Shown here one piece after another: positions 17,401 through 41,915 of a stretch of 64,000 nucleotides of DNA. The stretch comes from Chamaelirium japonicum (lineage: Eukaryota; Streptophyta; Magnoliopsida; Liliales; Melanthiaceae), in assembly GCA_947650365.1 (NCBI GenBank), contig OX393550.1:103194343-103258342 (forward strand), written 5' to 3'. Position 1 is the first letter of the stretch, and each line of letters begins with the position of its first letter. The notes under the pieces are model-generated. The model had not been told where the DNA came from and ran no database searches. It was given only the letters and a program-made list of their open reading frames with translations. A program made the translations under genes and the position numbers.

Positions 17401-20400
17401 TGGTCATTCCATCAGTTTCGACAAGATTGTGTCCTACAGGATGGGTAAGACATGGTTGAAGAGCCATTTCTCATGAAGCAGATAACTCTTTCCTTTTGGC
17501 CTTATCGTAGCACTCTTTCCTTCTGGCCTTATGGTAGTACTCTGCATTCCAACGACATTTTTTCTTTAGTGCATATGCCGCATAGGATGACAGGATTCTT
17601 TTCATACATCAGAAATGCGGATTCAAATGTTGATAGACATTAGATCAAATAAAGCTTAGGTCCACATAAAAACAAAATGCTAATAAAGACCAGATTTGAT
17701 CACTAGAACTGATCGTTCAGCATATGTAAATAATAGACTACATCATATATTACAAAAGAATTTGCATGCATATAAGTAAAAGCATTACACTTATAAATAC
17801 ATGTCTGATGCCAATCCTTTAAAACTTCATAATGACCTGTCAGATTTGCATATCTAATATTTTCACCTAATGGGTATTCTATACTGCTTCACAAGCACAA
17901 ATATGAGCCTCTTACCGATGATAACGGCTCTGAAAATGCCAACATAAGAACGAAACATGAGCGAACAGGGAGATCTTGCAACATATTTGCTAATTCTGGA
18001 TACAATGCCATATCTGAAATAGCCATCCAGGTAAGGAGGTCAAAGTATTAATTAGCATGTTTTACTTAACAAGAAAACATCAAATTGCACATTAATCATC
18101 ATTAACAACCAACACAGAGCAGAATGAGCAATAAGAACAGGTTCAGTCACTGTGCAAAATGCTTCCTACCACAAGTTTTTTCTTTTCTTAGTATCTTTCT
18201 TGAAAAGTGGCAAGGTTGTCAATGCCACATGGCTGTGAAGAACCAACCACACTTCAATTGATCGCTCTTCTCAAAGGTGGCCCTCAAAAACACTGAGCCA
18301 TTCCAGATTTCTAATTAAGTCGATGCTACGTATTAATACGACGGAGGAAAAAACAGTGTGGCTCATGAATTTTTTGACAAATAAAGCATTCTATAGTCTA
18401 ATTTAACCAATAATATGAGAATATAGAGTAGGAGGATTTATCCAATAAAACCAAACAATATATAAATCAAAATCGTAGCTAATTCAAACCCATTTGATTC
18501 ATTTTCAGGTTAGGAATGATCTATAGATCTCACAAACATAACATTATTTTTGTTAACCAATAGGCATTATAGATGTTTTTATAATAAAATAAAAGTTGCA
18601 AATGATTAGGTTTTAACTAATTTGTCATAACAGTAGTAAATAAATGCAATAATTTACATATGTATGCACTTTTAGATAAATAAAAAAAAGCTTTTTAAAC
18701 AAAAATAACTTAAGATTACATTCAAATTCAAATATAATAAGAATTTCATGATGTTAGTAATCCCATTTATTGAACATCTTGATAAATATGCAGATAACTA
18801 TTACATACTTCAGATCAAACTTTTACTTCATTCATCCAATGAATCTTTAGTAAGGAATCCAACAGAAAGGTGACCACTCCATCCTTATGGGTCGAGACTG
18901 TTGAGACAGGAATTTTGAGTTCAAGAACAGTATTTTGAAGGCATTATAAGCTTCAAAAAGCATCTTACCTGGAGATGACATTCAAATGTCCTAGCGTCTC
19001 CATGAAAGTTTGCGAGATTGTTGGGCTAATTGAGGATGACTACCTATATATCAGTGCATTTAGTGTTCAGCTAGTCAGCACAGCACCTATGGCTGAGCAC
19101 AATACTTGAGATGCCATGGAGGAGCAGCAAATGGATAACAGAAACTTGGCTATGGTAATTTATGTGATCAGGGCCTTTCAATTGTCAAAATAAAATACAA
19201 GCGTTGTTCTTATGGAGTTCGAAGAGCAAGAGCTGCAACCACAACGAATTAGTTAGTATTTTCATTACCGAGTATTTTCAGCACCTATGCATGCATTGTC
19301 TACACTTGGCAGCGCCCAGTCACGAACGATCTGATGAATCACGAGTTAGACCCTATCGTGGAAATGTGCATCCACACTCTTCGATTGAGGTGACATTTAC
19401 AAACATTTTTAATAATGTGAACTGATTGCATTTAGAATTAAATAAGTATTTTTAGTATTAAGCATTGAATGGATTAAGGTTAGGATGCCCATCTCAGCAT
19501 GCGGGTCTTGACGAACTCGTCGCATGTGGTCAATGGACCCCGCCTTGCATGCGGTGTCGCGAGTCCGCCGGCGCATGCAATTAATTAGAAGAACCATATA
19601 TAAATACTTTTGCCTGGATACGATATCATAATGTCTCAACTTATAACTGGAGAATTAAATAGTGTTATGGCATCTACCTTTGTAGGAAGGTTTGGAGGAA
19701 GCTAGAATAGAAAACATTTGTTGATCTACTTGAGGTTGAGTTCCTACAAAGTGACAAGACTAAGTGTTCTTAAGAGTAATATATGAGTTGTCCATATTGA
19801 AAATGTAAGAAAAGAAAAGAATCTACCAGTAGAGAAAGGGACCCCACACACACTGAGATAGTGAGTCTTCTATGGGTGTGCAGCCCAAAACCAAAAGTAG
19901 GTTTGGGATCACGGGCAAGGTTTACGATAAAGCGCTAAGTAGTTGCCCTTTAATTGGCAAAAAAAAAGTAATTGTCCTTTTAGGGGCTTGGCCTAGGAAA
20001 CCCCGACCTGGGGTCACAGCAGCCTCTGAAGCAAAACAAGATGGGCGAAAGTGCTCCTCCATGAAAAATGCAAAAAATCATTTGGCCAATTGGGTAATTC
20101 TGTATGAATGGATCCCGTTTATGAATAGAGCTGGCCCTCTGAAGTGAAATAAAGGCCCAATAGTAATACCTCCTGGGGACAAAATGAACAAAACAATATC
20201 AGGGTTCACAATAAGCTATAAAACACTTGACTATATGGCATATGACACTAGATAATATCGTTGCCATTGTTTTATAAATTCTACATTATTGACTTGCAAA
20301 TATTAGAATATTGTCATATAAACCTTTATATCTCGTTAGATTAGTTTGTCAATTCTTGAAGACTGAACATGTGACTTAAAAGACGTTTATTTCTAGTTAT

Positions 20401-23400
20401 TAAAATGCATTTGGATGTCACTAGCCTTTAATTTGGCCAATCTCCCAAATTCGTTTGAGGGCTGCCCATTCCCACGGGCAAGCTCACTTTCAGGACAGGA
20501 GACTCGAGAGCTTCAGTAGGAGTTAGAAGTGGAGTCTGCAGGCGTCGCGTTGTAGCTTTCGTCTTTCAGTATTTTTTGGATCATGTTGTCTCATGTTGGA
20601 TAATGTATTTGAGGATGGAATCAGATTATCGATCAATAGTCGTTTCTCTTAGTTATTGTGCGTTAAAGTGTCATATAACATTGCTATGATCCAGCTGGAA
20701 AGAGGATTTGCACTTGGTAGGCCTTTTCTTAAGGCGGCTCCCGTTAACCTCAGTAAGTAGTCAATGATAAGTAGGTAAAAGACTAAAATGATCTATCCCA
20801 AGTACTTATCCTTGCCCCTAGTTGTACTTGAGTATATGGAGAGACTGTGAGGTTTCTTGCTCGCCGTCGGAGAATTGAGCAACCGTGCTTCTTCCAAGGG
20901 GATTCTACCAGCGTGCTGTGGCACTAGAGTGTCGCCCAAACTAGGAGGATAGCCCTCTAATAGGTTGAGTTGCTTCTCTGGGAAGTTTCTTCCTTAAACG
21001 TATAACAAAATAATTTTGATTTCTAAAATTAAAATGTTTTAAATTGGCTCTCTCCTCTTCTAGTGATGTGAGAATATAGACTAGAGCCGGTGAGAGCCTT
21101 GACCATGTTCCAGTTGACTTGACCAAACCTATTTTTCACCCCTCTTCACTCTTCTCACCCCCAAAAATCGGTTCTCGTATTTTCGGGGCGTGACAGCTGG
21201 TATCACGGGCAGTCTCACTTTTAGGGCAAGAGACTCAAGAGCTTCAATAGGAGTTAAGAGTGAAGTCAACAGGCGTCACGTTGTAGCCTTCGTCTTTCAG
21301 TATGTTTTGGATTATGTTGTCTCATATTGGATAATGTATTTGAGGATGGAATGAGATTATCGATCAGTAGTTGTTTCTCTTAGTTATTTGTGTTAGTGTC
21401 ATATAACCTGACTATGATCTAGCAGAAAAGAGGCTTCACACTAGGTAGGCCTTTCCTTAAGGCCCTCGTTAACCTTAGTAATTAGTCAATGATAAGTAGG
21501 TAAAAAGCCAAATGATCTATCCCGAGTACTTGTCATTGCCCCTAGATGTACTTAAGTGCCTAAAGAGAGTAAGGTTTCTTGTTCGCCGTCAGAGGCTTGA
21601 GCAGTCGTGCTCCCTCAAAGGGGATTCTGCTAGCGTGTTGTGGCACTAGAGTGCCACTCAAACTGGGAGGATAGCTCTCTAATTGGTTGAGTTGCTTCCC
21701 CGAGAAGTTTCTTCCTTGAACACATAGTAAAATGATTTTGATTTTTAAAATTAAAATAAATGTTTTAAATTAGCTCTCTCTTCTCTTCTAGTGATGTGAG
21801 AATATAGACTAGAGCAGGTGAGAGCCTTGACTATGTTCCAGTTGACTTGATCAAATCCATGTTTTACCCCTCTTCGCTCTTCTTGCACCCAAAAATCGGT
21901 CCCGGATTTTTGGGGCGTGAGCTGCTGATTCAAAATTCAATAATTTGATATTTCAAGGCTAATATCAGCCATCCATTTGACCCTACATGATTTCCCACTT
22001 TATAGAGATGTAATAAGTTGTTAGAAAGATGGAACTATTGTGCCATCATTGTTTGATGAGTGCTACTGGACCATCAAGAATAGGTAGTAACTGGCCCTAT
22101 ACATATATTATTGCATATGCACATAAACATGTAATAACACATATACAAATATATATAGTTTGAGCATGTGCATCGATCGCAGATGAATTGATTAAGAGCA
22201 TCAATGGCTGATTTCTTCAACAGTTAACAGTGGTTTTTTTTTTCAATAAATAGGAAGTAACGATAAATGAACATATAATCTAGATAGCAGGCCCTAGCCC
22301 AGTTTAGTGGGGTCAGCTTTAGGCATCCAAAATCGTCACCGGTTCATATCAAATGCCGAGTCCCAAAAAAGGAAAGTGGATTCTATCTCTTCTAACTGTG
22401 TTGTCCATGGTTTCACCCTGCCATGTCTTTTGTTATTCTTCAATCTGAATGGAAGACCCCTCTTCGGTGGGTTCGCCTCTAGCATGTGTGTAGGGCCGCA
22501 GGCCAAACCATATCGAACAGTATTTACTCACCTTTTCCTTTATTATAAGCTTCCAATAATGTACTCATTCCTATCTCTATTTTTCCCAGTTTTAGAAAAC
22601 ATCTAACTCAGCATCTTCTCTATATTATTGTTCATTCATTACCTTTTCTAACCAGTACTTTAAGCGCAGGCTGCGCAGCAAATCCGGTACAGATTTGAGT
22701 TCAAAAAAACCCCAGCAACCCTAAATAGAAATTGACAATTATATGAACTCCCCTTTAAAGTATTCATCTGCATAAAGGGGACAGGCTATTGAAATAAAGT
22801 GACATAGTACAATGATAATTGTAGAGAAGAGTAAGAATTAAATGTTTGACTTAGTAGACTTCTGACGGAATTAAATAACCTCAGAATTTAACATCTGTGT
22901 CTCTCTACTGTGCAACCTTTAATTATCCATAGCTTAACCTTGTATGTTGCATTACTTATAGGTCCCAATATTCCATGAATTAGAGAGGTTAATAAAGAGA
23001 TACCGAACAGTTATACATTGTTTCATTACATTATGTAAGATTTCACATAGTTGTAACTTGCAACTATAAACATTGTATCATATACTCACTGAATTCAGCC
23101 TGAACATCAATCCAATAGAAACAGATAAAAACTGATAGGCTATGCCAATTTAATAATAATTTTGACCTTTATATGATATTATACAGAGAATTCTAGAGAG
23201 AACAAACCCAGAGGTGGCGGTTTTGCTGTTACCCTTGTAAATCTTGGTGATAACATATTTTTGTCTGATGACACCACATAATCAAAACGGCCTAAATCTT
23301 GCCCACACAAACTATTCAATGACCATGTACTTTTATCCTGCAGCCAATCCATTTTACCAACAGTGACCCCAAACTTGGCCTCCACTCCTAAAAAAGGAAA

Positions 23401-26400
23401 ACACAATAATTCAATCCCGGAGAGCAACAAAAGGTTTAAATGTAAAGCAAACTGCACCGCTAACCAGGTTCAACACATAGTGCTTTACATATTGAGTTCA
23501 TGCCTGGAATGCCTACATATTTCTTAGCCCTTCCTTCCTGAAAGAATCAAAGCATTAATAATGGCTAAATACACAATTTACATAGCACTGACAATTAAGG
23601 GGGTGTTTGGTATCATTTCGGAACAATCTATTTCCATTCCGAATTTCATGATTTAAAAATAATGGCTAGTAATTGTTCCAGGGGAATGAAGAACTTGGGA
23701 ACTAAAATATATCACTCCGGATGTTTCTATGCCAACCGGAACGCTGGACCATCAAATTGCATTAGAAATAGTAATTGACGGTAATAACCACTTCTGGAAG
23801 AGGATTAAGGGGAACATCTGTTTTACATACCAAACACCCCCTAAATTTCTGAGTGGTTAGAGCATGTGCACCTATCGCATTGCTCCATGAATTTAAATAG
23901 AAACTTATTCCGTTCTTAGTCTTATATAAAAAAATAGGACAGCTATAAACTAAGAAGCACTGACACTGGAACGGGGACACGGGTACGACACGACACGGGT
24001 TCGCCGACACGACAAATCCTAAAAAAGGACACGGGTACAACGAGGACACGGCAAAATAAATTAATATTTTTTAATTTATATTTTATGTGTGCTTGCAATT
24101 CATATATATTTCAATAACCGAAAAAACCTTATAGAAAACAACTAAAATAAAATTTTAATGCATACTGAATCGCTATCGTTAGTTACATCCAGCCCGATCG
24201 GTGAATCGCAGACAGCTCTAAATGGTATGGAAAATAACGATTGTGTTTCAGCTTTGACTTCAACCTATCTGAAACCTCAGAGGATAAGATAAGTTAAAGC
24301 CAAACCTGAATTGTAACCGTCCATCATAACCATCCTGACAAGTGAATCACACTCAGGCCCAAATGGCATGCAAAAGAACGGCTGCGATTCAGTTTTGGCT
24401 TCAACCTATCTGATTCTCTGAGGTTATAATCTCAGAGGATCAGATAGGTTGAAGCCAAAACTGAATCACCACAGCTTGAACCCGACCCTGTATCGAACAA
24501 TCCGTCAACCCGCAGTGTCCTGAGTGTCCGAGGAGTGTCCGGCTCCCGGAAGCACGAGGACACGGCACATGCGTGTCTCGTGCGTGTCCAGCAAGTGTCC
24601 GACACGGGTACAGGAGGCCTAAGGAAGTGTCCATACTTCCTAGGTTATAAAAGACCACTCAATAGACGAGGAAGATGACAATATTATACAGAACTGCACC
24701 ATGTGATAAACTTTCTCTAGAGTGAGGAATTTTCCATCAAATCAAAATACCCAGTCCCTTTCAACTAGGGCTGGCAATTTCGGACTCGACACGGCAGACC
24801 CGACACGAAGTTAGCGTGTCTGGGTTAGGGCTAAACGGGTTCGGGTCGTAAACGGGTCGACACGATAGACCCGTTTAATAAATGGGTCGGGTCCGGGTTA
24901 AGGGTCTGGGCACGGTAGACCCGGGAAGACCCGTTTAGTATTCAACGGGTAGTGTCGGGTCGGGTCGGGTCTACTCGCAATCCTATACTATAATATATAA
25001 TACCAGCGGGTCTTTCGGGTCAGGTCAGGTCGAGTCGGATTGGGTCGGATCGAGTCAACTGAATAGACCCGGGTGGTAAACGGGTCTTACCGGGTCTACC
25101 CGTTTATTAGCGGGTCGGGTACGGGTTTAGGATCTAGACACGATTAGTTAAACGGGTCGGGTCCGGGTCTAGGGGTTTTGGACACGACACGAAACTAGAC
25201 ACGAACCCGACACGACACGACCCATTGCCACCCCTACTTTCAACACAGAGAATAAGATAATTTTCCTTCAAGCACAGAGCTATAGCCTCTATTTCATTCT
25301 ATAAGTGGATAAAGGAACAAAAAATAGGTTTGCACATATATGCTTATATTTAGGAATTCTTATCATCTTTTTCCTCATTGTACCAACAATACACACGTGC
25401 ATCGCTCTGTATCCAGATTGATTAGACCATTAACAATTGGGGGTCACAAAAAGTTCAAAAATAAGTCTCGTTTCTTCACGACAATTGCATGATGTAGCTC
25501 ATGATTTCAAAATTTGGCCGATACCGAATCGTATCGACCGGTTACGACTTACGAGTCATGAGGCAGTACCGATGCTTGGTTAGTATCGGTCGATATCGGT
25601 ACATATCGATCATCATTGGTCAAGTCAGTCAAGTATTGGCTAATACGGTCAAGGCATATTGTTGGGACCTGCAATTTTTTTCGGATTTTTTTTTAAGGTT
25701 GAAACTGGCATCTGCCTGAACCGGCCATACAGAGCCAACTCGGCCGAGTTGACTCGGTTTTCTCAAGCTGATACAGTGATGGATACCCGGTTTTAAAACC
25801 AAGGTGTAGCTTCTTTAATCCAAACTATGGGATATCAACGGTTTGGACAACTAGGAAAAACAAGAATTCAACATGATTTTCGATATAAATGGGAAGACTC
25901 TCATTGTTGTCTTCCCCTTTCAGCAACCAGAAGCTGCTGTATTCACTCTTTGTTGCTTCTACAGTTGCTTACCAACACTTCCAGCCCTCTCTTGTGACAG
26001 TACCCTCTTAATTTTCTAGACTAAGTGAGGGTTAATGCATAGATCATGATGAGAGAAATGTGTTTGGATAACTTAAAGAAGGTGCAATCGGCAGAATATG
26101 GTGCCACATAATGAGAAGCTCTTTTCTGCTCAACTTATTACCCGCATCTGTAAGTTCGTTTTAGATGACAGAATCTGACTTATCATGTTGACAATGAAAA
26201 CAACATCAACTACACCATCAAAACTACAAGGTAGACTTCAATGATTATCCTTTTTTTTGGTCTACTTTTACATCTTTGCATCTCTTACACACGACTAACA
26301 GCATGCAATTATTTACCGACAACTTTCAGGCAGAAATATGAAGTTGGATTCGGCCCGGACTTTCCAAAAATAAGTATAGAGAAAAGTCAAAACAAGTTGA

Positions 26401-29400
26401 CTATAAGATGGAAAGTTACACCATAATCGTAACTACAACATTAGCATAACAATAAACATCAAGCCGTGTCCTGTCTTTCTTGGTTGGCTTTATGAATCCT
26501 TCTTCACATGTTTTCCTATTAAGGGATATCCCTTTCTTCACTAGACTCACTACATGCTTTTACAACCTTTTTTAACTCTCATCCGTATTATTTTAGGTCT
26601 TCCCCTCCTATATCTTGACCCCTCCACCACAATCTGAGACACTTTCCCAACATGAGATGTGCTCGCTTTTGGCGTGTGCCAAATTACTTAAATTATTCCC
26701 CATCATTTTCCCCTCAATTGGTGCAACTCTTGCACTTGTTCTAGTATACACATTCCGCTTGGACACTAAAGACAACAAAGACGCTCTATACAAAATAATG
26801 TGGGAGGTTGTTGACTGATCCAAGCGAACGGAAGTGATGTTCTCACTCTCAAGGATATCCCCAAATAATGTGATGATATTCCAAAATAATGTGATGATCT
26901 TTCACACCTAGTGTAAATCCAATGAAGTCAATTTCCCACCCCACCGAAAAACCAAACGAATGTAAAAAAAAACACTAATCTCATTTGCAGCAAATCGGTT
27001 GTTTTGTAGCATCATTTTGAAACTCACTGCTGAAAAGTTGAAAATGGAAAGTGAAAGTAGAAAGGAATTAGAGTTTTCAGATGTGAATATGGTGTTGTGC
27101 GCCAGACCGGTATCCATCCCTACATGGGATGTTGGGCTTCAACTTCCCTTTGGCCTTTGGTAAGGAAAAATGTGTAGCACGGACATACCTAAAAAAGTAA
27201 AAAATGTCATTTTCTTCCCTTTCTTTTGTTTTGTTGAATTACGCCATCGATCAGTGTTCGATCCATCTGTTCACAAGTCACAAGCTGCTGCACTATCCAT
27301 CCTTGCTTTGTTTGCACATCCACCTTAGCATTCTCATCTCCGCCACAATGTGTGCTGCCTTTTCTATGACCCAACATTTTGAACCATACAACATTGCGTG
27401 CATTGTTATTGTCTTGTAAAATCTACCATAAGTCTTAGAGGCATGCGTCGATTACATAGCACATTTGAAGCACCATTACACTTCATCCACCCAAAACTAA
27501 TTTTATGGAGGACTGTATTATCACTACCATTTCAACTGAAATTATATTGCATAATTTTGTAGTAGTTCTACCAGACTTGGCTCCGGTCTTCGTCTCCGTC
27601 ATTTCCAACAGCGAGGAGAGGGGGGGGGCACCGTAACATCTTCATGATGATTGACGAGACATTTTGCCATGGATAAAAATATCGATCGCGGACAAATTAT
27701 CGGCCGGCCGAAAAAACGGTTCAAACCGGGCTGTACGAACCGGTATCGGTCTGAACCGGTCCATAACGGTGTGAATTGATTTTTGGTTTCAAAAAAATTT
27801 GAAAAAATAACCAAAATATCCAGAATAATCTAAAATAATGATTTGTGATGTTTTTTTTCATTAGTAAACTAGTTATAGGTATGAACCGGTCTTTCTAAGT
27901 TATAAAGTTACTGTTTTCACTGTATGATTCTAAATTGTGGAATTTGATATAGTTATTAAATTGTATGTATTAGATTAGCCTAGTATTAAGCTTAGGGATT
28001 ACAAAACATAATTCATGACCATTGCACAAACATGAATTACACAACTAATACGAGTACATGAGTCATATTTTACAATTTCACATAATATGATAATAAACAC
28101 AAATTCATATTCCTAAGACTCCTAACATGTTTAGCAAATAAAATGCATATCCATAACTTACAAGAGTAGAGAATTAGATATTTTTACCTACTTAGACTGA
28201 GTAACTTAGTACCACATGGAACTTCGGGCAGGCTGCATTTCATCATCATCATCATTGCCTCGTGGATGACCAGATGGCGGCAATGTCAGATATTGGAAGA
28301 AATCATACACAAATGACTGATATTGAGGCTCCCCGTACGAACTCCCAAATTGGGAGTTCGTACGGGGAGTCCCAATGCTACCCATCGATGATTCTGGCTC
28401 CGGCTAAGGATAATATGGTGGTGGGTAGTGTGGTGGAGGATATCCATGTCCATAATAAGGTTGTTGCCACTGTCCTCTAGTTTCTCTAACTCCACTATCA
28501 TTTGCACCCCCAGTACCTCCATGTTCAATACCAACATTCCCACTATCTCCGAAATCCATACTATGTGAATCGAAGACACATGTGTTGTCTTCATAAGTGC
28601 TGTCGGTGTATACAGGGTATGGTCATGGAGACTGTGGAGAAAGCGGCAACCGAGGTCCTAGAGAACTGCTACTACTGCTATGATGGCTGGACTCAGAATC
28701 AGACTCATGTGGTGCCTCCCGCTTAGGCTGAGTCTGGTGTTTACCTCTGTAAGATCTTATCCGGTCAGCAGCTCTGAGAGACTCATTACCATCCAAGTCT
28801 GGTATATCTCGTACTAATGCTTCGTCACCATCTAACACTGGTAGCTCCCCTTCTTCTATCCAAAGTGTCAACGGATCATTCTCCTCTGAAAATATATAGT
28901 CCAAATTAATTGAACATGAGTACTCTTTCTGCTCTTCCGCATCCAATCGTTTTCTAGTCCTCGTTCTAAGCCTTAGATTATAATTGATGAAGACCAACTT
29001 CTCCAAATTCTTCATAGTTATACGATTTCTTGGCTCACAATTTGAAGAAGAGGTTGTTTGGCTCAAAACTCTGATGACAACCTTTCTTAGTGCTGGTGTT
29101 GTTTCTCCATAATTCATCCACCACTCCGCTGCAAATAAGAAAAAAAAAAGAATTAGTTCTCTTTATTGTATCAGAAATTACCTCCATACATAAAAAAATA
29201 AATTTGGTTATCTTTATCGGGCTTGCATCTCTCTATTGCGTGTCTCGCGATAGTGTCTCCAAAACTCCCTAACCCTTGATTATAGTAGTCAATCTGTAAT
29301 AAAAAACAATATACATTAATGATTTATGTTATAAGAAATAAATAGTAACATCCTAAAGATGAATAATGTCATTCGTCCTTACCTGAGTAATGTCATCAAT

Positions 29401-32400
29401 CTGATCGTTTACATTACTTAGTAATCTCTTTATCATTTCTTTTAATCCTACGCGCACTTCATCAATGATCTCTCGTGAATTATTTGCGTAGCGGTGTATA
29501 GGATTAAGAAAATAACTTACATATTCATCAATACAAGTTATCCATATTTCACAATATTTATTTATATGCTAACCACTATACAAATATGAAATACATAATT
29601 CAATTACCTGCTGCGTGCAGGTCATGGTACAGCTGGCGATCCACTTTTTATCAATCATCTCCCAATACTTTTTATAGTATCTGGTTCTCGCCTGGATTTG
29701 CAACTTGGCTCTGTCCATTACCTCGTATATATCTCCCATTGTCGGCTTCTCGTCACCGTCAACTAGCCGCAAGACAAAGAGTAGTGGCTCGACAATATCA
29801 CAAATATCCTTTACATTATCCCAAACTTTCTTTTTCGCACTATCCCTGCCATATCAGCTCTTGGGCCTTCTGTAATCTTCCCATATTTTGATACTAGCCT
29901 TTCCGAAGAGAGAAACATCTGTTGCAAACCAATTTTGTGCTTCCACAAGCTATCTAAAGCAATGTAGTTTGTGGCAAATCTAATTATGCCGGACCTTAGC
30001 AGTTCATGACCATCTGTATAAGTCTTCATCAATGCAATGAACCAGTTATGAGTGTAGATGAACATTGTAATTTTTCTTGTCTTTACAATCGCTTTTGACA
30101 CCCATGGTTTTTTCCCAATGTCTTCAATCATCAAGTCCAAGCAATGAGCTAAACAGGGGGACCAAAAACTATGCGGCCAAGTCAGTTTCATTCCTGCAAC
30201 CTTATAAGTGGCTTCGTTGTCTGTCACGATTTGGACCACATATTCTTCACTTACCTCCTCGACGACTTCATTCATCAATGTATGCAGATAGTCAGCATTT
30301 TTTACTTTGTCTGTCGCATTAATAGACTTAGAAAAACTGTCCCGGAAGATAAATATACAAGAAAATTAATCAAACTTCTTCGGTTGATGCTTGTCCACCC
30401 ATCACACATAATAGTGCATCTTCTTTCTTTCCAACAATCCTTAAAGCTGTTAACCCATTCCAATGCCTCCTTGTACTCATACTGGACACATGTATGTCTT
30501 ATATCATATGGTGTAGGGGCCGGAATACCAGGACCAGCACTTGCCACTGCGTCAAACATGCCTTGCAGGTACGGTGACGATGCAACATGAGGCGAAATCT
30601 GATTGTGTAGAAAAAAATTTCATGTTGCCTTCTTCACAATCTCCTTTGCCTTCTTTTGCATCCCAGTTAATGCAGCTTTGATACCAAGCTGTGTAGATGA
30701 CGGTCTCCTACAAGCCATCGGACCCACTACTCTCGAACTAGGCCCCCCCGACAAATGTACCTCCTCGTTCCTCTCAAGGGGTCGTGAGCTGAGGACACGA
30801 CGTAAAGATCCGCCAAAGCCTTGTGATGATTCAATACCCTTGTCAGTGCTACCAGATGGTCTAGATCCACCGGATCTAGATACGCCTCCATGCTCAAAAG
30901 TTGAACATCTCGTAATTGCCTCTCGTTGTAATCTCCTCATCAGTTTGCAGAGTCTGCTTAGAAGCTCTCATTGCTGCCTCCATCTGAGAATCATCATCTT
31001 CATCCTCACTCCCCCAGATCTCATCTCTACATGCATCTAGCTCCTATCTCCTGCTAGTTTCCTTCTGTGCTTTCTTTTGTTTTCCACAGTCAAGCAATGC
31101 TTGCATTTATTTTTTAACCTCCTTGGATATATTGGGACATACAACTACTTGACATTTTTTATGTGTCAAGTGCTCTTTCAGCCTCGTGATCCCTCCATTG
31201 AGCACCTTTGCACAATACTTGCACTTAATTTTGTGCCTCAAACCCGCAACTACTTACCCATGGGACCACGCATGATCATACTCTCGCATTATTTTCCTGA
31301 AAAATAGTCAAACATTCAAGAATCAAGTCATTTTACAATTTACATATATTTCGCCATAATTATTTAGTTTTTTTTTCAAAAAAAATGTTACAAAAACAAA
31401 AGAAAAATGAAAAAACATCCAAAATTTGCATGAACCGATCATGCAAATTTGGAGATGATACTTCAAATCTTATAGATCTAACCTTTATTGGCATAGATCT
31501 GACCCATATCAACAATTTCATCATAATTATTTAATTTTTTTTCAAAAAAACTTGCAACAAAAGAAAATAAAAATGAAAAAAACCCAAATTTGCATGAACC
31601 GATCATGCAAATTTAGAGATGATGCTTGATCTATCGATCTAAGCTTTGATGGCATAGATCTGACCCATATCCACATTTTCACCATAATTATTTGATTTTT
31701 TTCAAAAAAAAATGAAAAAAAAAATGAAAAAAACCCAAATTTGCATAAATCGATCATGCAAATTTGAAGATGATGCTTATAGATCTAAGCTTTAATGGCA
31801 TAGATCTAACCCATATCAACATTTTCACCATAATTATTTGGTTTATTTTTTAAAAAAATATAAAAAATAAAAATAAAATGAAAAAACGCCAAAACCGATC
31901 ATGCAAATCTGGAGATGATGCTTATAGATCTATAGATCTAAGCTTTGATGGCATAGATCTGACCCATATCAACATTTTCACCACAATTATTTGGTTTATT
32001 TTTAAAAAAAATGCAAAATTTTTTTTGAAAACTCCCCAAATTTGCATGAACCGATCATGCAAATTTGGAGATGATGCTTATAGATCTATAGATCTAAGCT
32101 TTGATGGCATAGTTCTGGTCCATTTCAACATTTTCACCACAATTATTTGATTTTTTTCAAAAAAAATACAACAAAACAAAAGAAAAATGAAAAATATTTA
32201 TGAAAACATACCTTTAAATGTGATTTTGATCTTGCAAATCCGAGTTTTTGGCTTCAAATCTTACAAATCCAGCTAGTATGGAGGTTCACCTTATGTGGGA
32301 CTGAAGAAAGATGCCCCAAAAAATACAATTAGAATGAAAAAAATCACCCAAAACCATACTTCATACCCGGTACCGGTTCAAACCGGCCGGTTCGAACCAG

Positions 32401-35400
32401 TACCGGCCGGTATTTACGCGATTTAAACCTCGCGACCGGTATCGACTGGATACCGGTGTAGTTCGGTCCGATTCCTGGTTTGAACCGGCCGATACGGTTC
32501 GTACCGGCCGGTATTTTGATCCTTGCATTTTGCCGATCAACCACTCATGAAGCGTCATGTGGTGGGAGAGTGCAAGCTCGCATCCTTGAGACGCGAAACG
32601 GCACCGCGATGAGACTACCCGATGTTTGTCATTTTACGCCGGGTGTCCTGGTCAAATGATCGTCATGTGTCCCATTATGATGACTGAACAGATGTCGCCA
32701 GTTGTTGCCCACCCAACAGCCAGTTGGAAACAATTGTCACCTGTTTTGTTGGGGTACAGACAGCTGGACCCCATTTATTCGGAGTGAGCACCCTGAACGA
32801 CAGAGACCACCACCGAAACGACCGAACCATGACACAAGATCATGTCGGGTTCCTGAAGACGCTGAGCTCTACTGGATGCAACCCTCCATGAGAGGGTAAT
32901 GTTGGTGTTCGGGGCGTCACCTGCTCGACCTTTGTGTGACAACTCGATGGACAGGAGCAGGGGACGATGACTCGTGATCAGCCGGAACGACCATGGGAAA
33001 AGCCAAGTCCGGCATAAACACCTAGTAGCTTGCCCGTGATAACGTCAACATGATGTTAGCAACGACTAGCGAGCTCCTCAACGATGACGTTAGTAAGGAG
33101 CTCGTCCATAATAAAGTCAGTATAACGTCGGCGGGGAGCCCCCTATGATGACATCAGCAGAGAGCTCACCCATGATGACATCAACAAAGAGCTCATCCAT
33201 GATGATGATGACATCAGCAGGAAGCTCGTCCATGATGATGCCAACATGATATCAGCAGGGAGCTCGATCGAGATAACGGTAGCGGGATAATAAATAGGAG
33301 TTCATCCCATGGGCGGTAAGCTCTCCTACGACACCATGCGGACAGCCTCCCCGAACTTGGCTCCTTGACAGAAATCCCCTTCCTTGCTCGTCGTCTAAGT
33401 ATGGGAAGGGTGCCAAGAAGTAGAGGCGTGTTGAGCAGCGTGCACAGACCAAGGATCAAAATACCGGCCGGTACGAACCATACCGGCTGGTTCAAACCGG
33501 GAACCAGACCGAACCGCACCGGTATCCAGTCGATACCGGTCGCGAGGCTTAAATCGCGTAAATACCGGCCGGTACCTGTTTGAACCAATACCGGGTATGA
33601 AGTATGGTTTTTGGTGGTTTTTTCATTCCGATTTTATTTTTTGGGCATCTTTCTTCATTCCCACATGAGGTAAACCTCCATACTAGCTGGATTTGCAAGA
33701 TTTAAAGCCAAAAACTCGGATTTGCAAGATCAAAATCACATTTGAAGGTATGTTTTCATGATTTTTTTTCATTTTTTTTTGTTTTGTTGCATTTTTTTTG
33801 AAAAAAATAAAATGATTGTGGTGAAAATGTTGAAATGGGCTAGATCTATGCCATCAAAGCTTAGATCTATAGAGATATAAGCATCATCTCCAAATTTGTA
33901 TGATCGGTTCATGCAAATTTGGGGGTTTTTCAATTTTTTTTTTTTTATTTTGTATTTTTTTTAAAAATAAACCAAATAATTGTGGTGAAAATGATGATAT
34001 GGGTCAGATCTATGCCATCAAAGCTTAGATCTATATATCTATAAGCATCATCTCCAAATTTGCATGATCGGTTTATGCAAATTTGGGGTTTTTTCATTTT
34101 TATTTTTATTTTTTGTATTTTTTTAAAAAATAAACCAAATAATTGTAGTGAAAATATTGATATGGGTTAGATCTATGCCATCAAAGCTTAGATCTATAGA
34201 TCTATAAGCATCATCTCCAAATTTGCATGATCGATTCATGTAAATTTGGTTTTTTTCATTTTTATTTTCATTTTTTGCTTTTTTTTTGAAAAAAACCAAA
34301 TAATTATGGTGAAAATGTGGATATGGGCCACATCTATGCCATCAAAGCTTAGATCTATAAGCATCATCTCCAAATTTGCATGATCGGTTCATGCAAATTT
34401 GGGGGTTTTTTATTTTTATTTTTTTTTTGTTGCATTTTTTTTGAAAAAAAAACAAATTATTATGATGAAATTGTTAATATGGGTCATATCTATGCCATCA
34501 AAGGATAGATCTATAAGATTTGAAGTATCATCTCCAAATTTGCATAATCAGTTCATGCAAATTTGGATGTTTTTTCATTTTTCTTTTGTTTTTGTAACAA
34601 TTTTTTTGAAAAAAAAGTAAATAATTATGGTGAAATATATGTAAATTGTAAAATGACTTGATTCTTGAATGTTTGAATATTTTTCAGGAAAATAGTGATA
34701 GAGTATGATAATGCGTGGTCCCATGGGGAGGCAATTGCGGGTTTGAGGCACAAGATTAAGTGCAAGTATTGTGCAAAGGTGCTCAATGGAGGGATCACGA
34801 GGCTGAAAGAGCACTTGGCACATAAAAAATGCCAAGTAGTTGTATGTCCCAATGTACCCAAGGAGGTTAAAAAAGAAATGCAAGCATTGCTTGACTGTGG
34901 AAAACAAAAGAAAGCACAGAAGGAAACTAGCAGGAGACAGGAGCTAGATGCTTGTAGAGATGAGATCTGGGGGAGTGATGATGAGGATGATGATTCCAGA
35001 TGGAGGCAGCAATGAGAGCTTCTAAGCAGACTCTGCAAACTGATGAGGAGGCGAGGAGGTTACAGCGAGAGACAACTATGAGAGATTCGACTTTTGAGCA
35101 TTGAGGCATATCTGGATCCGGTAGATCTAGACCATCTGGTAGCACTGGCAAGGGTATTGGATCATCACAAGGCTTTGGCGGATCTTTACGTCATGTCCTC
35201 AGCTCACGACCCCGTGAGAGGAACGAGGAGATACATTTGTCGGGGGGGCCTAGGCCGAGAGTAGTGGGTCCGGTTGGCCCAATGGCTTGTAGGAGACCGT
35301 CATCTACACAACCTGGTATCAAAGCTGCATTGACTGGGATGCAAAAGAAGGCAAAGGAGATTGTAATGAAGGCAACAGGAAAATTTTTTCTACACAATCG

Positions 35401-38400
35401 GATTCAGCCTCATGTTGTATCTTCACCGTACCTGCAAGGTATGTTTGACGTAGTGGCAAGTGTTGGTCCTGGTATTCCGGCCCCTACACCATATGATATA
35501 GGACATACATGTGTCCAGTATGAGTACAAGGAGGCATTGGAATGGGTTAACAGCTTTAAGGATTGTTGGAAAGAAAAATGATGCACTATTATGTGTGATG
35601 GGTGGACAAGCATCAACCGAAGAAGTTTGATTAATTTTCTTGTATATTCATTTTCCGGGACAGTTTTTCTTAAGCCTATTGATGCGACAGACAAAGTGAA
35701 AAATGTTGACTATCTGTATACATTGATGAATGAAGTCATCGAGGAGGTAGGTGAAGAATATGTGGTCCAAATCATGACAGACAACGAAGCCACTTATAAG
35801 ACTGCAGGAATGAAACTGATGCAGACTAGGCCGCATATGTTTTGGTATTCTTATGCAGCTCATTGCTTGGACTTGATGATTGAAAACATTAGGAAAAAGC
35901 CATGGGTGTCAAAAGCGATTGCAAAGACTAGAAAAATTACAACGTTCATCTACACCCATAACTGGGTCATTGCATTGATGAAGACCTATACAGATGGTCA
36001 TGAATTGCTAAGGCCCGGCATAACTATATTTGTCACAAACTACATTGCTTTAGAAAGCTTGTGGAAGCGCAAAATTGGTTTGCAACAGATGTTTCTCTCT
36101 CCGGAATGGCTAGCATCAAAATGGGGGAAGATTACAGAAGGCACAGCAACTGATGTGACAGCGATAGTACGAAAAAAGAAATTTTGGGATAATGTGAAGG
36201 ATATTTGTGATATTGTCGAGCCACTACTCTTTATCTTGCGGCTAGTTGACGATGACGAAAAGCTGACAATGGAAGATATATACAAGGCAATGGACAGAGC
36301 CAAGTTGCAAATCCAGGTGAGAACCAGATACTACAAAAAGTATTAGGAGATGATTGATAAAAGGTGGGATCGCCAGCTGCACCATGACCTGCATGCAGCA
36401 AATAATTGAATTATTTATTTCATATTTGTGTAGTGGTTAGCATATGAATAAATATTGTGAAATATGGCTAACTTGTATTCATGAATGTGTAGGTTATTTT
36501 CTTAATCCTATACACCGCTACGCAAATAATTCACGAGAGATCACTGATGAAATGCGCATATGATTAAAAGAAGTAATAAAGAGATTACTAAGGAATGTAA
36601 ACGATCAGATTGATGACATTACTCAGATAAGGACGAATGGCATTATTCATTTTTAGGAGGTTACTATTTATTTTTTATAACATAAATCATTAATGTACAT
36701 TGTTTTTTATTACAGATTGACTACTATAATCAAGGTTTAGGGAGTTTTGGAATTTGGAGACACTATCGCGAGACACGCAATAGAGAGATGCAAGCCCGGT
36801 AAATATAACTAAATTTATTTTTTTATGTATGGAGGTAATTTCTGATACAATAAAGAGAACTAATTCTATTTTTTTCTTATTTGCAGCGGAGTGATGGATG
36901 AATTATGGAGAAACACCAGCACTAAGAAATGTTGTCATTAGAGTTTTGAGCCAAATAACCTCTTCTTCGAATTGTAAGTACAATTGGAGTACATTCTCGT
37001 TGATTCACACAAAGCCAAGAAATCGCCTAACTATAAAGAATTTGGAGAAGTTGGTCTTTATCAATTATAATCTAAGGTTTAGAACGAGAACTAGAAAACG
37101 ATTGGATGCGGAAGAGCAGAGAGAGTACTCATTTCCAATTAATTTGGACTATATATTTTCGGAAGAGAATGATCCGTTGGCACCTTGGATAGAAAAAGGA
37201 GAGCTACCAATGTTAGATGGTGACGAAGCATTAGTACGAGATACAGCAGACTTGGATGGTAATGAGTCTCTCAGAGCTGCTGACCAGATAAGATCTTACA
37301 GAGGTAGACATCAGACTCAGCCTGAGCGGGAGACACCACATGAGTCTGATTCTGAGTCCAGCCATCATAGCAGTAGTAGCAGTTTTCTAGGACCTCGATC
37401 GCCGCTTTCTCCACAGTCTCCACGACATACCCTGTATACACCGGCAGCACTTATGAAGACAACACATGTCTTCGATTCACATAGTATGGATTTCGGAGAT
37501 AGTGGGAATGTTGGTGTTGAACATGGAGGTATTGGGGGTGCAAATGATAGTGGAGTTAGAGAAACCAGAGGACAGTGACAACAACCTTATTATAGACATG
37601 GATATCCTCCACCACACTACCCACCACCATATATCCTCAACCGGAGCCAGAATCATCGATGGGTAGCATTGGGACTCCCCATACGAACTCTCAATTTGGG
37701 AGTTCGTACGGGGAGCCTCAATATCAGTCATTTGTGTATGATTTCTTCCAATATCAGACATTGCCGTCATCCGGTCATCCACGAGGCAATGATGATGATG
37801 ATGAAATGCAGCCTGCCCGAAGTTCCATGTGGTACTAAGTTACTCAGTCTAAGTAGGTAAAAATATCTAATTCTCTACTCTTGTAAGTTATGGATATGCA
37901 TTTTATTTGTTAAACATGTTAGGAGTCTTAGGACTATGAATTTGTATTTATTATCATATTATGTGAAATTGTAAAATATGACTCATGTACTCGTATTAGT
38001 TGTGTAATTCATGTTTGTGCAATGGTCATGAATTGTGTTTTGTAATCCCTAAGCATAATACTAGGCTAATCTAACAAATACAATTTAATAACTATATCAA
38101 ATTCCACAATTTAGAATCATACAGTGAAAACAGTGACTTTATAACTTAAAAAGACCGGTTCATACCTATAACTAGTTTACTAATGAAAAAAAAAACATCA
38201 CAAACCAGTATTTTAGATTATTTTGGATTTTTTGGTTATTTTTATAAATTCTTTTGAAACCAAAAATCAATTCACACCGGTATGGACCGGTTTAGACCGA
38301 TACCGGTTCGTACCGCCCGGTTCGAACCGTTTTTTCGACCAGCCGATAATTTGTCCGCGACCGGTATTTTTAAACATGGCACAGACCAAACAACCAGGAT

Positions 38401-41400
38401 GGCAGAATATTGACCTATAAACAAGAGCATAACGCGTGGTGTAGAAAAATGGCGTGCTCCAACTGACCGACCACCTGGTGACCCACTACATCACCGACCT
38501 GCCACCAACTAGGGCACAACCCATGGAGATTCTCTAAGCAGTCTAGCATTCCTACAGCACAGTGATGCCAGCCCCTGACCGCTAACAAGCTGGCCCAAGA
38601 GGTGACCTGCACTAGTAACGCCCCACCACTTGGTTGCCACATGGTCGGATACGTGTTGACGTCTTCGACCTCTAGGCTCCGATAAAAGCCAAACAAGGGC
38701 TCTATTCAAAGGGTCGGAATACAATGAGTCCTATAAATACCCTAGCTCTCCTTCCCTTCTAGCTCGCCCATCCGCTCTTCACCGAGTCCGATTTAGGCAT
38801 CGGATGGTCGTTGCTCCATAGGGAGTCGGTCGTCTCTAACAATTACTATGTTTTGTAGTCCTTCACCGACCCCCTCACTTCTCAGTCTTCTCCTCACTAA
38901 CGGAGTCGAACGCCGAAGCCACTATAGCGGTCCCCCTCCGGCGAAAAACTTTGCCCGGCAGGATCCCTAAGAGGACGTTTTTCCCCCCAACAATCATCAG
39001 CATAATCACCATCCAAGTCTTATCCCATCAAATTGGGATCGACTAGTACACAAACTTGACCAAGGCAGTTTGGCAAGGGAGAGGCATGCCATAAAAATAA
39101 AATAAAAAACTAAAAGGCTAGTTGGCGGGTAGGGAGACTCGCCTTATTGGTGTGTCTCTAAAGTCTTTAAGCTCAGGCAACTATGAAGCAACACTCTAAC
39201 GTTCCTCTAGAGTCTAGACTAAGAAAGTGTCTAGACAAAGAGGGTAGAAGGTAAGATTTGATATAGAGAATTGCATTCATTTGTGTAATACGAATTCTAC
39301 CCCAATGAGTTAAAACAAAAAAACATGACAATAGATTTGACCATATAGAGGAGGGGTTAATTCTTATAACACCTAAAATGAATTCACAACTAAGATTGAG
39401 GTCGAGCATTGTATTCATATGGTTGTCATCATATTGAGTATCATGTCATAAAAAATGCTTGTTCTTATAGCAATCCATTAGGTAAAGTGATTAACGCAAG
39501 GATGTAAATTAATCATTAAGTGAATCAGGCGTAGAGTCCATGAAACAATATTGTTTGTGAGAAATTACTATCAAGGTGCATCCAATTACAGAAGTCTTTT
39601 GACATGAACGCATTACCAATTACTATTGTACTATTTTGGTCACTTTATGGGAAACCATAGTATCGATGCATGGGGCACTTACTGGAGCACAATCGATCAC
39701 TAGGTGTGATAGGGGTATGCAATGATCGAGGGAAAATTGTTTACTATGGAATCAAACATAACAAAGATTCATACAAAAACATAAAAATGGATCAGGATGA
39801 AAATTCGGTTGTGATGTACATAACTGACTTTGATCATAGACTTCACAAGTTTATGTATTATCATTATTGTGATCAGTGAGAAGTTATATCCATCATTTTA
39901 TCTCTTGATCAGAGCGAAAATCTTGATGACCATGTTACGGATTGGCTACAGTTTCATACTATCTATTGTTTTTCCCATAAGATTGTTCTTAAGTAAAATT
40001 TGATGGAATCATGGAAGGAGTAGACTGTAAGTCTTTTGTTTGTGGACTTATGTTTAATTTCCTCAAACTTAGGTCCGTAATTGTAAAAGTGACATAATTA
40101 TTTGTACTTATGAATTGGGACACTTTTATTAAATTGTGACACCCAACACATGTTCAGGAAGCAAGTTGGGATTTTGGGAGTCATAAACTTACACGAGCAC
40201 CAATCCCCCTTCCAACTTTCTTCATATATATTGGTTGATCCCTCCCCGTCAACACATATAAGTTGACCCCTCCCCCACATAAATAAATAAATAAATAAAC
40301 AGGACCTCCTGCATGACAAGTCTTCCTTTAAGCGACCATGAATCGCTATGAAGCCATTACCTCAACAATACATCTAGGTTTGTGTGCTAGAACAATATGC
40401 TCTAGGTTTATGCATATTTTAAAATAATATTATGCATTAGATCATGAACTCTATTACTTTTTTTTGAGAATTCACCAACGTCATGTATGAGCGGGGTTAA
40501 GACAGGGACCCTTACCAGTTAGTCAGTTACCCTATTTGATGAAGGCGGAATTCGATCCCAGGTCTCTAATACAACCACCAAGAGACTTTACCAGTTACGC
40601 TAACATCACACCATAAATTATATGTTTTGCATCACGAGCATGATGATGATCTACACATGTAGGATCCCGATTTATGTTTGCTTAAAGGTGCTTGTAGAAA
40701 GGGGGCTTATGGTGCCGTAATGAAAGGAGAGATCCATGCATGTTCAGCGATGCTTGGTATTTGTTTTCACTTCCAAAAGCAGTTAATATTATACTAATTA
40801 TTGTGTTTAAGCCTCAATTAATAGATATTGAAAGAAAAAGAACAAAATATTTTCTCTATTCACAGATAATTCCCAAACCATCCCGCATCTCCATATTTTA
40901 AGAGGTGGTAGCAAATTGAACCTAATTCTACACCAACTCCCATTCCACCAAACTATCTATCCCACAAAAACATTAGTAAACATGTGCACTCAAGATACAC
41001 GAGTCTCAAGACATAATATTAGTAAACATGTGCACTCAAGATGAAGAAGGCAAATCATATAAAGAGGTTCGCATGACAAACGTTTTCGATTTCCAGGAAC
41101 TTGGCTGTGATCCTATCGAAACACCCGAACTTTTCCTTCCACTCGGCAACAAGACCGCACGCTTCCCATGAGCCGACGACGCCCATTGCCTCATTGTTCT
41201 CCACGGTGAAAAAGGGGGCGCCGTGATCGAAGAAGAGCTCCCTCCCGTCTTCTGTGGTTTCCCTGAAGGGATCCAGGCATGAAATGTGGTCTCTTGGTGC
41301 TAGCAGAGGCTATAAACTCAACTAAACATGTTCACTCCTCAAATTTTCAGGAGAAAAGTTGCTTAGAAATGGAGAACAAAAAGAACCCACTAGCCAATCC

Positions 41401-41915
41401 CTTTTCTGAATCAAAACCAACCCATTCTGGAAAATAAAAATAAAAAACCATTGCACCCCAACAAGTAACAAGGAATTTGAGGATAACCCATTTCTTTAAA
41501 ATAGCATCCCATCCCAAAAAAGGTCGAAAAAAAAAATTTTGACAAGGAAGTGAAGCAAGAACTCGACCATTCTTTGCGACAGGGGAAGAAAGAATCGAAC
41601 CTCCGTTGCGACATCCGCCCACCGGCGCCCCTGCCGGACTCAAAGACGGTGACGGAAACCCCTCCGCGTGCCAGAACGGAAGCGCAGACCGCCCCAGAAA
41701 CTGGCAAGGGCAATCCGCGCATCAAAAATATATATATAATCTCAGAAAAAAATGCAAGAAAATAAGAGAATTCATGTGATTTTTAGAAGTAAGGTCGGGA
41801 TCGAGGGTGCCAGAAATCGAATACCTCCACTGCCGATGACGGCCACATTGGAAGCGCGCCTCATGGTGGCCGCGTGCCGACAGAAGACGGGGAGAGGCGA
41901 GAGGGGTGCTGCCAT
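14475..41915 (-). CDS. renalase-like NAD(P)/FAD-dependent oxidoreductase, nine exons over 27.4 kb
   Basis: Coding exons on the minus strand: 41825-41915, 41601-41700, 41082-41262, 23465-23537, 23208-23387, 17916-18013, 15706-15803, 15407-15580 and 14475-14634. All introns are GT-AG, phases agree, and the total is 1155 nt (384 residues plus stop). Residues 28-33 are the FAD-binding GSGVSG, followed by ESGRGAGGRM (51-60) and DHGAPFF (about 76-82). Later come YVGIPGMNSICKAL, YVVSSDKNMLSPRFT, PFFMKAHRW and a C-terminal ICGDFCASPSVEGAVLSG flavin motif. It resembles Arabidopsis At3g04650-type proteins. Renalases oxidise abnormal NAD(P)H isomers in animals and bacteria; the plant substrate is unknown. 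An in-frame ATG at 41999 would add 28 residues. The N-terminus may be an organelle signal. Introns 3, 5 and 6 are swollen by transposons. Confidence 0.93.
14903..15004. repeat. 23-bp tandem repeat in intron 8
   Basis: About four and a half units of GTATAYATTCGTCTTCAGAA-type sequence (22-23 bp each) lie in tandem within intron 8 (14635-15406) of the renalase-like gene. Confidence 0.8.
16327..17062. mobile_element. hAT non-autonomous element in intron 6
   Basis: Ends CATAGTCGCCAAGTTCTCC and, in reverse complement, CATAGTCACCAAGTAAGG. Flanks CCTACGTC (16319-16326) and CCTACATC (17063-17070) match at 7 of 8 bases, an hAT-sized duplication. The interior repeats CCCGTTTTTT-like runs. 736 bp, non-coding, inside intron 6 (15804-17915) of the renalase-like gene. 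Confidence 0.8.
17095..17180 (+). repeat. tRNA-derived SINE fragment
   Basis: An A-box-like TAGTTGAGTTAG at 17102-17113 is followed by AAAGTCTCGG and ACCTGGGATC, in the same order as in the SINE at 40.5 kb. The B box is weak and no A-rich tail is seen. It directly follows the hAT element. Confidence 0.4.
18014..20472. other. intron 5 of the renalase-like gene, right part
   Basis: Within the 5.2-kb intron 5 (18014-23207). No further exon, RNA or clear transposon end is seen here. The sequence is AT-rich with scattered short open frames. Confidence 0.4.
20473..21922. mobile_element. LTR retrotransposon fossil: two tandem leader-plus-LTR units
   Basis: Two copies of a ~725-bp unit lie head to tail, offset by 731 bp (20473-21197 and 21204-21922). 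Each ends in GGGGCGTGA, which in the first reads GGGGCGTGACA and is followed by TGGTATCACGGGC, close to the initiator-methionine tRNA primer-binding site used by many plant LTR elements. The order is therefore leader, LTR, leader, LTR with no coding interior. The family is probably Ty3/gypsy. It is an old, broken element. Confidence 0.65.
21923..23207. other. intron 5 of the renalase-like gene, left part
   Basis: No exon or transposon terminus recognised between the LTR fossil and exon 5. It includes a poorly coding open frame at 22307-22606 that I do not support. Confidence 0.35.
23599..23841. mobile_element. Tourist-like MITE (GGGGGTGTTTGGTA ends)
   Basis: Perfect 14-bp terminal inverted repeats GGGGGTGTTTGGTA/TACCAAACACCCCC, with TAA on both sides (23596-23598, 23842-23844). 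243 bp, non-coding. It lies at the 3' end of the 17.5-kb intron 3 of the renalase-like gene, 62 bp from exon 4. Confidence 0.92.
23950..24643. mobile_element. hAT MITE with internal hairpins
   Basis: Ends CTAAGAAGCACTGACACT and, in reverse complement, CTAGGAAGTATGGACACT. Flanks GCTATAAA (23942-23949) and GTTATAAA (24644-24651) match at 7 of 8. GGACACG-type subterminal repeats are dense at both ends. The middle holds strong hairpins, for example arms at about 24390-24425 and 24431-24466. 694 bp, in intron 3. Confidence 0.8.
24766..25236. mobile_element. hAT MITE (TAGGGCTGGCAAT ends)
   Basis: Ends TAGGGCTGGCAAT and ATTGCCACCCCTA with a perfect 8-bp duplication CTTTCAAC (24758-24765, 25237-25244). 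It is packed with GGGTCGGGT/AACGGGTC subterminal repeats, the usual hAT transposase-binding arrangement. 471 bp. Confidence 0.92.
25500..25803. mobile_element. hAT MITE (CATGATTTCAAAATTTGG end)
   Basis: Ends CATGATTTCAAAATTTGG and, in reverse complement, CTTGGTTTTAAAACCGGG. Flanks ATGTAGCT (25492-25499) and GTGTAGCT (25804-25811). The interior carries TATCGGTCGATATCGGT repeats. 304 bp. The termini resemble those of the two large hAT elements nearby. Confidence 0.82.
25812..27659. other. intron 3 stretch with no recognised feature
   Basis: Between the hAT MITE and the first large hAT transposon. Short open frames show no family features, and no further exon of the renalase-like gene is expected because exons 3 and 4 join in phase. 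Confidence 0.4.
28206..31289 (-). pseudogene. hAT transposase (BED finger, DUF659, hAT dimerisation), left copy, disabled
   Basis: Starting at the ATG at 31289 the order is: BED zinc finger (CKYCAKVLNGGITRLKEHL), DUF659 core (DGWTSINRRSL, IVTDNEATYK, AHCLDLMIEDIGKKPWVSKA), then a C-terminal dimerisation region (LEKLVFINYNLRLRTRTRK) ending at the stop at 28206-28208 after SSMWY. Intron positions match those inferable in the other copy. A stop codon interrupts the BED region just after AWSHG, and the conserved NWSTFSLIHTK motif kept in the right copy is deleted here. It is therefore probably not a source of active transposase. Confidence 0.88.
28329..28369. repeat. 41-bp near-perfect palindrome in the hAT C-terminus
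   Basis: Two perfect 20-bp arms starting CTCCCCGTACGAACTCCCAA flank one base. In the right copy the matching 41 bp (37675-37715) has two arm mismatches. It lies in the transposase C-terminal coding region. Confidence 0.9.
31380..32170. repeat. five-unit tandem array inside the left hAT
   Basis: Units of about 147-163 bp repeat the order TTTGCATGAACCGATCATGC, GGAGATGATGCTTATAGATC, AAGCTTTGATGGCATAGATC, ACCATAATTATTTGGTTT and an A/T run. Each has a palindromic core built from GCATGANCCGNTCATGC. It lies between the transposase start and the terminal repeats, so probably in the 5' leader or intron. Confidence 0.88.
33740..34625. repeat. five-unit tandem array inside the right hAT
   Basis: Reverse-complement counterpart of the left array, with units of about 155-165 bp. 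Each contains CCAAATTTGCATGATCGGTT with its palindromic partner, a CATCAAAGCTTAGATCTAT segment and a T-rich run. Confidence 0.88.
34695..37838 (+). pseudogene. hAT transposase, right copy, disabled
   Basis: Same domain order as the left copy: BED finger (about 34695-34900), DUF659 core with MCDGWTSINRRSL, IMTDNEATYKTAG and AHCLDLMIENIRKKPW (35590-35950), and C-terminal dimerisation region with NWSTFSLIHTK and LEKLVFINYNLRFRTRTRK (36900-37130), ending with SSMWY and a stop at 37836-37838. A one-base loss next to GATGATTCC near 35000 shifts the frame after the BED domain relative to the left copy, so this copy also looks non-functional. Probable introns interrupt the region at about 36400-36490, 36650-36716 and 36800-36886. 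Confidence 0.88.
38993..40456. other. intron 3 stretch with no recognised feature
   Basis: AT-rich, no convincing open frame or transposon ends. A short AAAT run lies at about 40280-40298. Confidence 0.35.
40458..40618 (-). repeat. tRNA-derived SINE
   Basis: On the minus strand an A box TAGCGTAACTGG (plus coordinates 40591-40602) and a B box GGATCGAATTCC (40547-40558) are about 32 bp apart, the tRNA spacing. A run of A residues (T on plus, 40458-40465) marks the 3' tail. About 160 bp. It lies in intron 3, in the same sense as the host gene. Confidence 0.7.

Follow-up and report, generated by a model that had tools for sequence, protein, structure and literature searches.

Two oppositely oriented hAT transposon copies in an intron of a renalase-like gene of Chamaelirium japonicum: probably an inert passenger pair in a recently active family

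The stretch analysed here, called the window throughout, comprises 64,000 nucleotides of Chamaelirium japonicum (contig OX393550.1, positions 103,194,343 to 103,258,342 of the forward strand). It contains a renalase-like gene whose third intron holds two hAT transposon copies in opposite orientation. The host gene could be read on the minus strand as nine coding exons with GT-AG borders at all eight introns. When the encoded protein was searched against solved structures, the two best matches were 3kkj (named flavin-containing amine oxidase, E 8.7e-33) and 4zcc (named renalase, E 1.3e-32), both spanning residues 24-383, and the Pfam domains NAD_binding_8 and Amino_oxidase were found in it. The 5' part of the gene has a single match in the genome, which is itself (1/1). 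The intact nine-exon frame and the renalase match bear out the original prediction, made from the letters of the sequence, that both copies lie inside intron 3 of a renalase-like gene. The features are as follows, in window coordinates.

14475..41915, minus strand: renalase-like host gene, coding part, 9 exons with a 384-amino-acid open frame
41915-41825, 41700-41601, 41262-41082, 23537-23465 and 23387-23208, minus strand: host gene exons 1-5
18013-17916, 15803-15706, 15580-15407 and 14634-14475, minus strand: host gene exons 6-9
23538..41081, minus strand: host gene intron 3, about 17.5 kb, holding both hAT copies
27668..32525, minus strand: hAT copy 1, 4858 bp, transposase sense to the host gene, reading frame broken
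27660..27667, unstranded: left target-site duplication of copy 1, CATTTTGC
32526..32533, unstranded: right target-site duplication of copy 1, CATTTTGC
33450..38378, plus strand: hAT copy 2, 4929 bp, transposase antisense to the host gene, reading frame broken
33442..33449, unstranded: left target-site duplication of copy 2, GCACAGAC
38379..38386, unstranded: right target-site duplication of copy 2, GCACAGAC
32526..33449, unstranded: spacer and would-be loop, 924 bp, lacking a second full match in the genome
31349..32187, unstranded: tandem array in copy 1 on the 5' side of the transposase, a 156-bp unit repeated about 5.4 times
33764..34635, unstranded: tandem array in copy 2 on the 5' side of the transposase, a 163-bp unit repeated about 5.4 times

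The pair consists of two near-full-length hAT copies that were inserted separately and in opposite orientation. The coordinates, ends, orientation and 924-bp spacing that had been predicted were all exact on recheck. Each copy has its own perfect 8-bp duplication (CATTTTGC for copy 1, GCACAGAC for copy 2), and these separate duplications support the claim of two independent insertions. In a global alignment of the two copies, 4515 matches and 310 mismatches were counted in 4825 ungapped columns (93.6% identity), with 27 gaps, of which two exceed 10 bp. Local alignments gave 94.8% over 1373 bp and 90.7% over 3557 bp. Perfect runs of at least 21 bases add up to 2507 bp, the longest being 137. 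The copies are alike from end to end, as had been proposed, yet the arms fall short of near-perfect; chance is no concern for the similarity itself.

The other members of the family were sampled across the 1.52-Gb genome, which includes the window, and the results below refer to the best-scoring places. The assignment to hAT held on three marks, namely 8-bp duplications, short terminal inverted repeats and transposase domains. The transposase pieces of copy 2 carry zf-BED, DUF659 and Dimer_Tnp_hAT, and the fragments of copy 1 carry DUF659 and Dimer_Tnp_hAT, the BED part lying outside the pieces examined. When the DUF659 part of copy 2 was searched against the PDB, there were 0 matches at E 0.1. 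The terminal inverted repeat CATGGATAAAAATA stands at one end of copy 1 and exactly in 13 of 19 other copies with hand-placed ends, the opposite repeat CAAGGATCAAAATA was seen in most copies inspected, and the first end of copy 2 deviates (CATGTTTAAAAATA). A perfect 8-bp duplication flanks 11 of these 19 copies; the remaining 8 include truncated copies and possibly misplaced ends. The family resembles the plant hAT superfamily of the Ac/Ds kind in its duplications, in its short imperfect terminal inverted repeats beginning CA and in its three transposase domains, and differs from it only in family-specific sequence and in the subterminal 156-163-bp tandem array. One sampled element (L014 4743-6501) has an internal deletion and is, at 1759 bp, a non-autonomous derivative that keeps both ends and is flanked by a perfect 8-bp duplication. 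Two others, in L027 and L028, were inserted at the common short motif CTCTATAAATAG, with ATAAATAG duplicated; these sites are perhaps TATA-box-like or part of a shared repeat.

In the minus-strand host transcript, copy 2 (transposase antisense) would be followed by the spacer and then by copy 1 (transposase sense). RNA folding was carried out by aligned segments. When matched 400-column arm segments were cofolded as minus-strand RNA, 4633 of the 4929 bases of copy 2 were paired with copy 1, and the cofold energies were about 2 to 4 times the self-folding energies. According to these models, the arms could pair over nearly their whole length, provided that transcription runs through intron 3. 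This upholds the potential for complementary arms of about 4.9 kb with a loop of about 0.9 kb in the host pre-mRNA, as had been suggested.

The ends of both copies were then used to search the genome. With the end of copy 1, the closest match besides copy 2 was 95% identical (best 40 of 533 candidates). Among the best 40 of 518 candidates found with the end of copy 2, a separate lineage appeared, in which 15 of 16 sampled ends were 99.6-100% identical to each other and had different flanks. The 5' ends of this lineage are 86.7-87.3% identical to the intron arms. A search with the young end found at least 19 places matching at 98% or more over the full length (best 40 of 664 candidates), plus one partial match at 100%. 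Two of the young copies were delimited.

L045 190-5545, 5' end left, L045 being reverse-complemented: young copy
L046 156-5509, 5' end left: young copy

Over 5.36 kb the two share 99.7% identity, and they are flanked by the perfect 8-bp duplications CTCCCTAC and CTAGCAGC. In L045 both transposase exons are open (577 and 357 amino acids), with zf-BED, DUF659 and Dimer_Tnp_hAT; in L046 the first exon, the only one examined, is open. Whole-element identity of the young copies to copies 1 and 2 is 93.0-93.3%. When the young coding region was used as the query, the best 40 of 139 candidates comprised 17 at 100%, 7 at 99%, 4 at 98%, 7 at 97% and 5 at 96% identity. From these sequences, the young lineage is apparently autonomous and very recently amplified. 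Since the duplications of L045 and L046 are perfect and the transposase frames of L045 are open, the family may still be mobile.

The original prediction held that the locus could be a natural silencer of its own hAT family. Under such a silencer, members younger than the pair should be rare or absent, and any young ones that survive should lack targets. This prediction failed, as young members exist among the best-scoring genome samples and carry perfect 21-nt targets. In L045, 1928 of 5336 21-mer positions (36%) are present in the arms, and a flank control gave 0 in 1301 bp. For the 5' ends, the fraction of 21-mers matching the arms was 19-21% in 15 young copies, 28% in L029, likewise one of the young ends, and 22-38% in 10 older copies. 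The silencing role was therefore not sustained: the family seemingly kept transposing, including copies with many perfect targets, and because it appears to have kept spreading in the genome, the pair is unlikely to be an effective off-switch. Escape of the young lineage by total loss of matches was considered separately and is ruled out by the 36% of L045 positions that still match.

The ages were compared in a tree of 16 sequences, comprising copies 1 and 2, 12 older copies and the 2 young copies. This tree has the form of a star, its internal branches being tiny. The terminal branches measure 3.7% for copy 1, 3.4% for copy 2, 0.14% and 0.10% for the young copies and 2.1% to 5.5% for the 12 older copies. 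In ten of these 12 the terminal branch is shorter than in both of the intron copies, and for five the difference is clear (branches of 2.1-2.7%). The first coding exon contains 5 in-frame stop codons in copy 1 and 4 in copy 2, whereas the young copies have the natural stop only; it also has 6 deletions in copy 1 and a single deletion, of 1 bp, in copy 2. Private changes are spread over the three codon positions as 14/10/11 in copy 1 (p 0.69) and 9/12/5 in copy 2 (p 0.24), as expected for decay that would have proceeded free of constraint. Where the two young copies differ from the rest, the counts by codon position are 4/0/11, as expected if the young lineage was kept functional meanwhile. Neutral rates in plants are roughly 0.6-1.5 x 10^-8 per site per year. 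At such rates, 3.5% per lineage would correspond to about 2-6 million years and 0.1% to about 0.1-0.2 million years. The perfect duplications of the intron copies fit such an age, the chance of 16 unchanged bases at 7.1% divergence being 0.31. The intron copies look much older than the young copies.

Taken together, our results suggest that the pair is probably an inert passenger, an inverted pair carried in a long intron of the renalase-like gene. Two members of a long-lived, multi-copy and recently active hAT family would have entered intron 3 in opposite orientations, probably a few million years ago as judged by divergence, and both would have decayed since, unconstrained. Intron 3 would normally be transcribed and spliced out together with both copies. 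If the nascent RNA folds, processing by Dicer-like enzymes would contribute at most to local methylation of the pair itself, in the manner of other intronic transposons, and would not shut the family down. Several points weigh against this reading. Insertion dates taken from branch lengths can include divergence older than the insertion, the copies could have started to decay as defective elements that were moved in trans, and identity to one young copy is no age in itself. The arms may also give rise to small interfering RNAs (siRNAs) and put partial pressure on the family. The young lineage could have amplified through partial escape; at the 5' end it shares only about 87% identity with the arms and has fewer 21-mer matches than the older copies.

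How the pair arose is a separate matter. Local transposition, in which one copy, or a nearby source shared by both, jumped a short distance and landed reversed, is a tentative account to which we give something over a one-in-three chance. It concerns origin and not function, and is compatible with the passenger reading. Copies 1 and 2 are weakly placed as sisters in the 16-sequence tree (ultrafast bootstrap, UFBoot, 93), on a very short branch (0.0024), and a second inverted pair, on C6, likewise comes out as sisters (62). Seven sites are exclusive to copies 1 and 2, a number tied highest with one other pair when the young pair is set aside. However, the tree is star-like with tiny internal branches, and copies 1 and 2 differ by 6.4%. 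Gene conversion was also considered for the kinship of the two copies and was rejected. The seven sites are scattered over 28781-31290, so that the kinship is not due to one conversion tract.

An effect in cis only, with the pair making intron 3 heterochromatic and lowering or altering host expression through premature polyadenylation or splicing defects, is improbable. Transposon sequence makes up 9.8 kb of the 17.5-kb intron, the 5' part of the host gene has no second match in the genome, and there is a precedent in the intronic transposons that are handled by IBM2-type factors. However, the host reading frame and all splice sites are intact, and the gene therefore seems to tolerate the insertions. 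At CG and CHG the arms show C/T differences of 6.6-7.8%, only a mild excess over the 5.0-5.9% at CHH. A strong methylation-driven decay of the arms was rejected on the mildness of this excess.

Slightly less probable still is a silencer like maize Mu killer (Muk), in which transcription of intron 3 yields a 4.9-kb double-stranded RNA and siRNAs that silence the hAT family in trans. The near end-to-end pairing of the arms and their matches to more than a third of the 21-mer positions of a young copy speak for it. So do two published cases. Mismatches in hairpin transgenes lower self-silencing and make RNA interference (RNAi) more uniform and persistent than with perfect hairpins (PMC9263138), and on this account the 6.4% divergence of the arms is no bar in itself. 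In rice, siRNAs are reported from an intronic miniature inverted-repeat transposable element (MITE) of WRKY45, and siRNAs of intronic MITEs act in trans (PMC7714444). Against the silencer stand the apparently continued activity of the family, with a recent burst despite perfect-match targets, and the terminal branches of most older copies, shorter than those of both intron copies. No Mu killer-like dominant inactivation of an active family was found, as judged indirectly from the young matching members.

The analogue itself is weaker than the original prediction had it. In PMC3440606, the Mu killer plants in which MuDR was silenced produced short antisense transcripts that arose within the locus, whereas sense transcripts reading through from the neighbouring gene were observed in Mu killer plants where silencing of MuDR failed; its authors leave room for a contribution of longer hairpin transcripts as well. 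Since the read-through transcripts occurred in non-silencing plants, an argument that rests on host read-through is weakened. Muk is described there as a single rearranged derivative of MuDR that has the same end twice and carries inverted mudrA sequence of about 1.3 kb. Both loci are inverted repeats of a DNA transposon that include transposase sequence, Muk beside a gene and the intron pair within one. Unlike Muk, the pair consists of two whole elements with their own duplications, 6.4% divergence and a 924-bp loop, and is intronic. Silencing is known for Muk and hypothetical for the intron pair. A like distinction holds for intron-derived hairpin siRNAs and the WRKY45 MITE of rice, where an intronic inverted repeat is likewise a possible siRNA source; siRNAs were reported for the MITE (PMC7714444). 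Among the literature matches listed, which comprised titles and the starts of abstracts, none described an inverted-pair silencer of a hAT family, a result that leaves its absence unproven.

A census of pairs was made from 98 places, taken from the main matches of the searches with the ends of copies 1 and 2, the young end and the young coding region, after repeated and short secondary matches had been dropped; rule-based merging reduced these places to 90 elements. The places are best-scoring samples, and the merging could hide direct pairs. Four pairs within 50 kb were found among the 90 elements, all of them inverted: the pair in the window and the following three.

L016 4083-9001 and L047 4968-9130: C6 inverted pair, copies facing, 4.9 kb apart
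L027 3239-8438 (C4:82207087-82212286): C4 foldback, one element half duplicated in inverted orientation
L048: C4 foldback of the other element half, with an arm of about 2.5 kb at 93.5%, adjoining a run of N

The expectation for pairs in any orientation was 0.053 within 10 kb and 0.264 within 50 kb. Only the C6 pair counts as a fresh case, because two of the four are rearrangements of single elements and the window pair had prompted the census. The C6 copies have their own 8-bp duplications (GGAAGCAC and ATATATGG), and the L047 copy lacks about 0.7 kb internally. In the foldback in L027 the arms measure 2470 and 2691 bp and are separated by about 40 nt, and their aligned pieces are 90.1-93.2% identical. 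This foldback carries the identical transposon end on both sides, and the outer element has a perfect 8-bp duplication. It resembles Mu killer in shape, more nearly than the intron pair does, and its shape is also comparable to that of the maize double Ds. The foldback in L048 is less sure and is possibly an assembly effect. With the second inverted pair and the two foldback derivatives, the inverted configuration recurs; that the window pair is unique is ruled out by the same three cases. A wider proposal, that the family repeatedly leaves inverted pairs and foldbacks but not direct ones, that their hairpins exert partial siRNA pressure and that the young lineage amplified after its 5' end had diverged, is a long shot as a whole.

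That the window pair is an assembly artefact is scarcely credible: inverted repeats are assembly-prone and the L048 foldback adjoins a run of N, but the target-site duplications of the two copies differ, the copies have diverged by 6.4%, the 64-kb window is free of N, the 5' part of the host gene matches the genome only at itself, and the sole full genome match of the 924-bp spacer is likewise itself (1 of 6 candidates, the other 5 being short and partial).

Elsewhere in the window, open frames lie at 45489-58090 on the plus strand, which resemble a DEAD-box RNA helicase with a glycine-rich tail. Long GA/CT microsatellite tracts at 59912-60252 form short inverted repeats.

The locus lets one ask, in a natural setting, if a long hairpin of a DNA transposon within an intron suffices to silence its family. 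The genome argues that it does not suffice, as copies that match the arms and are apparently autonomous seem to have multiplied once decay of the pair had set in. The young hAT lineage is the more notable by-product of this analysis, and points to very recent mobility of the family in Chamaelirium japonicum.

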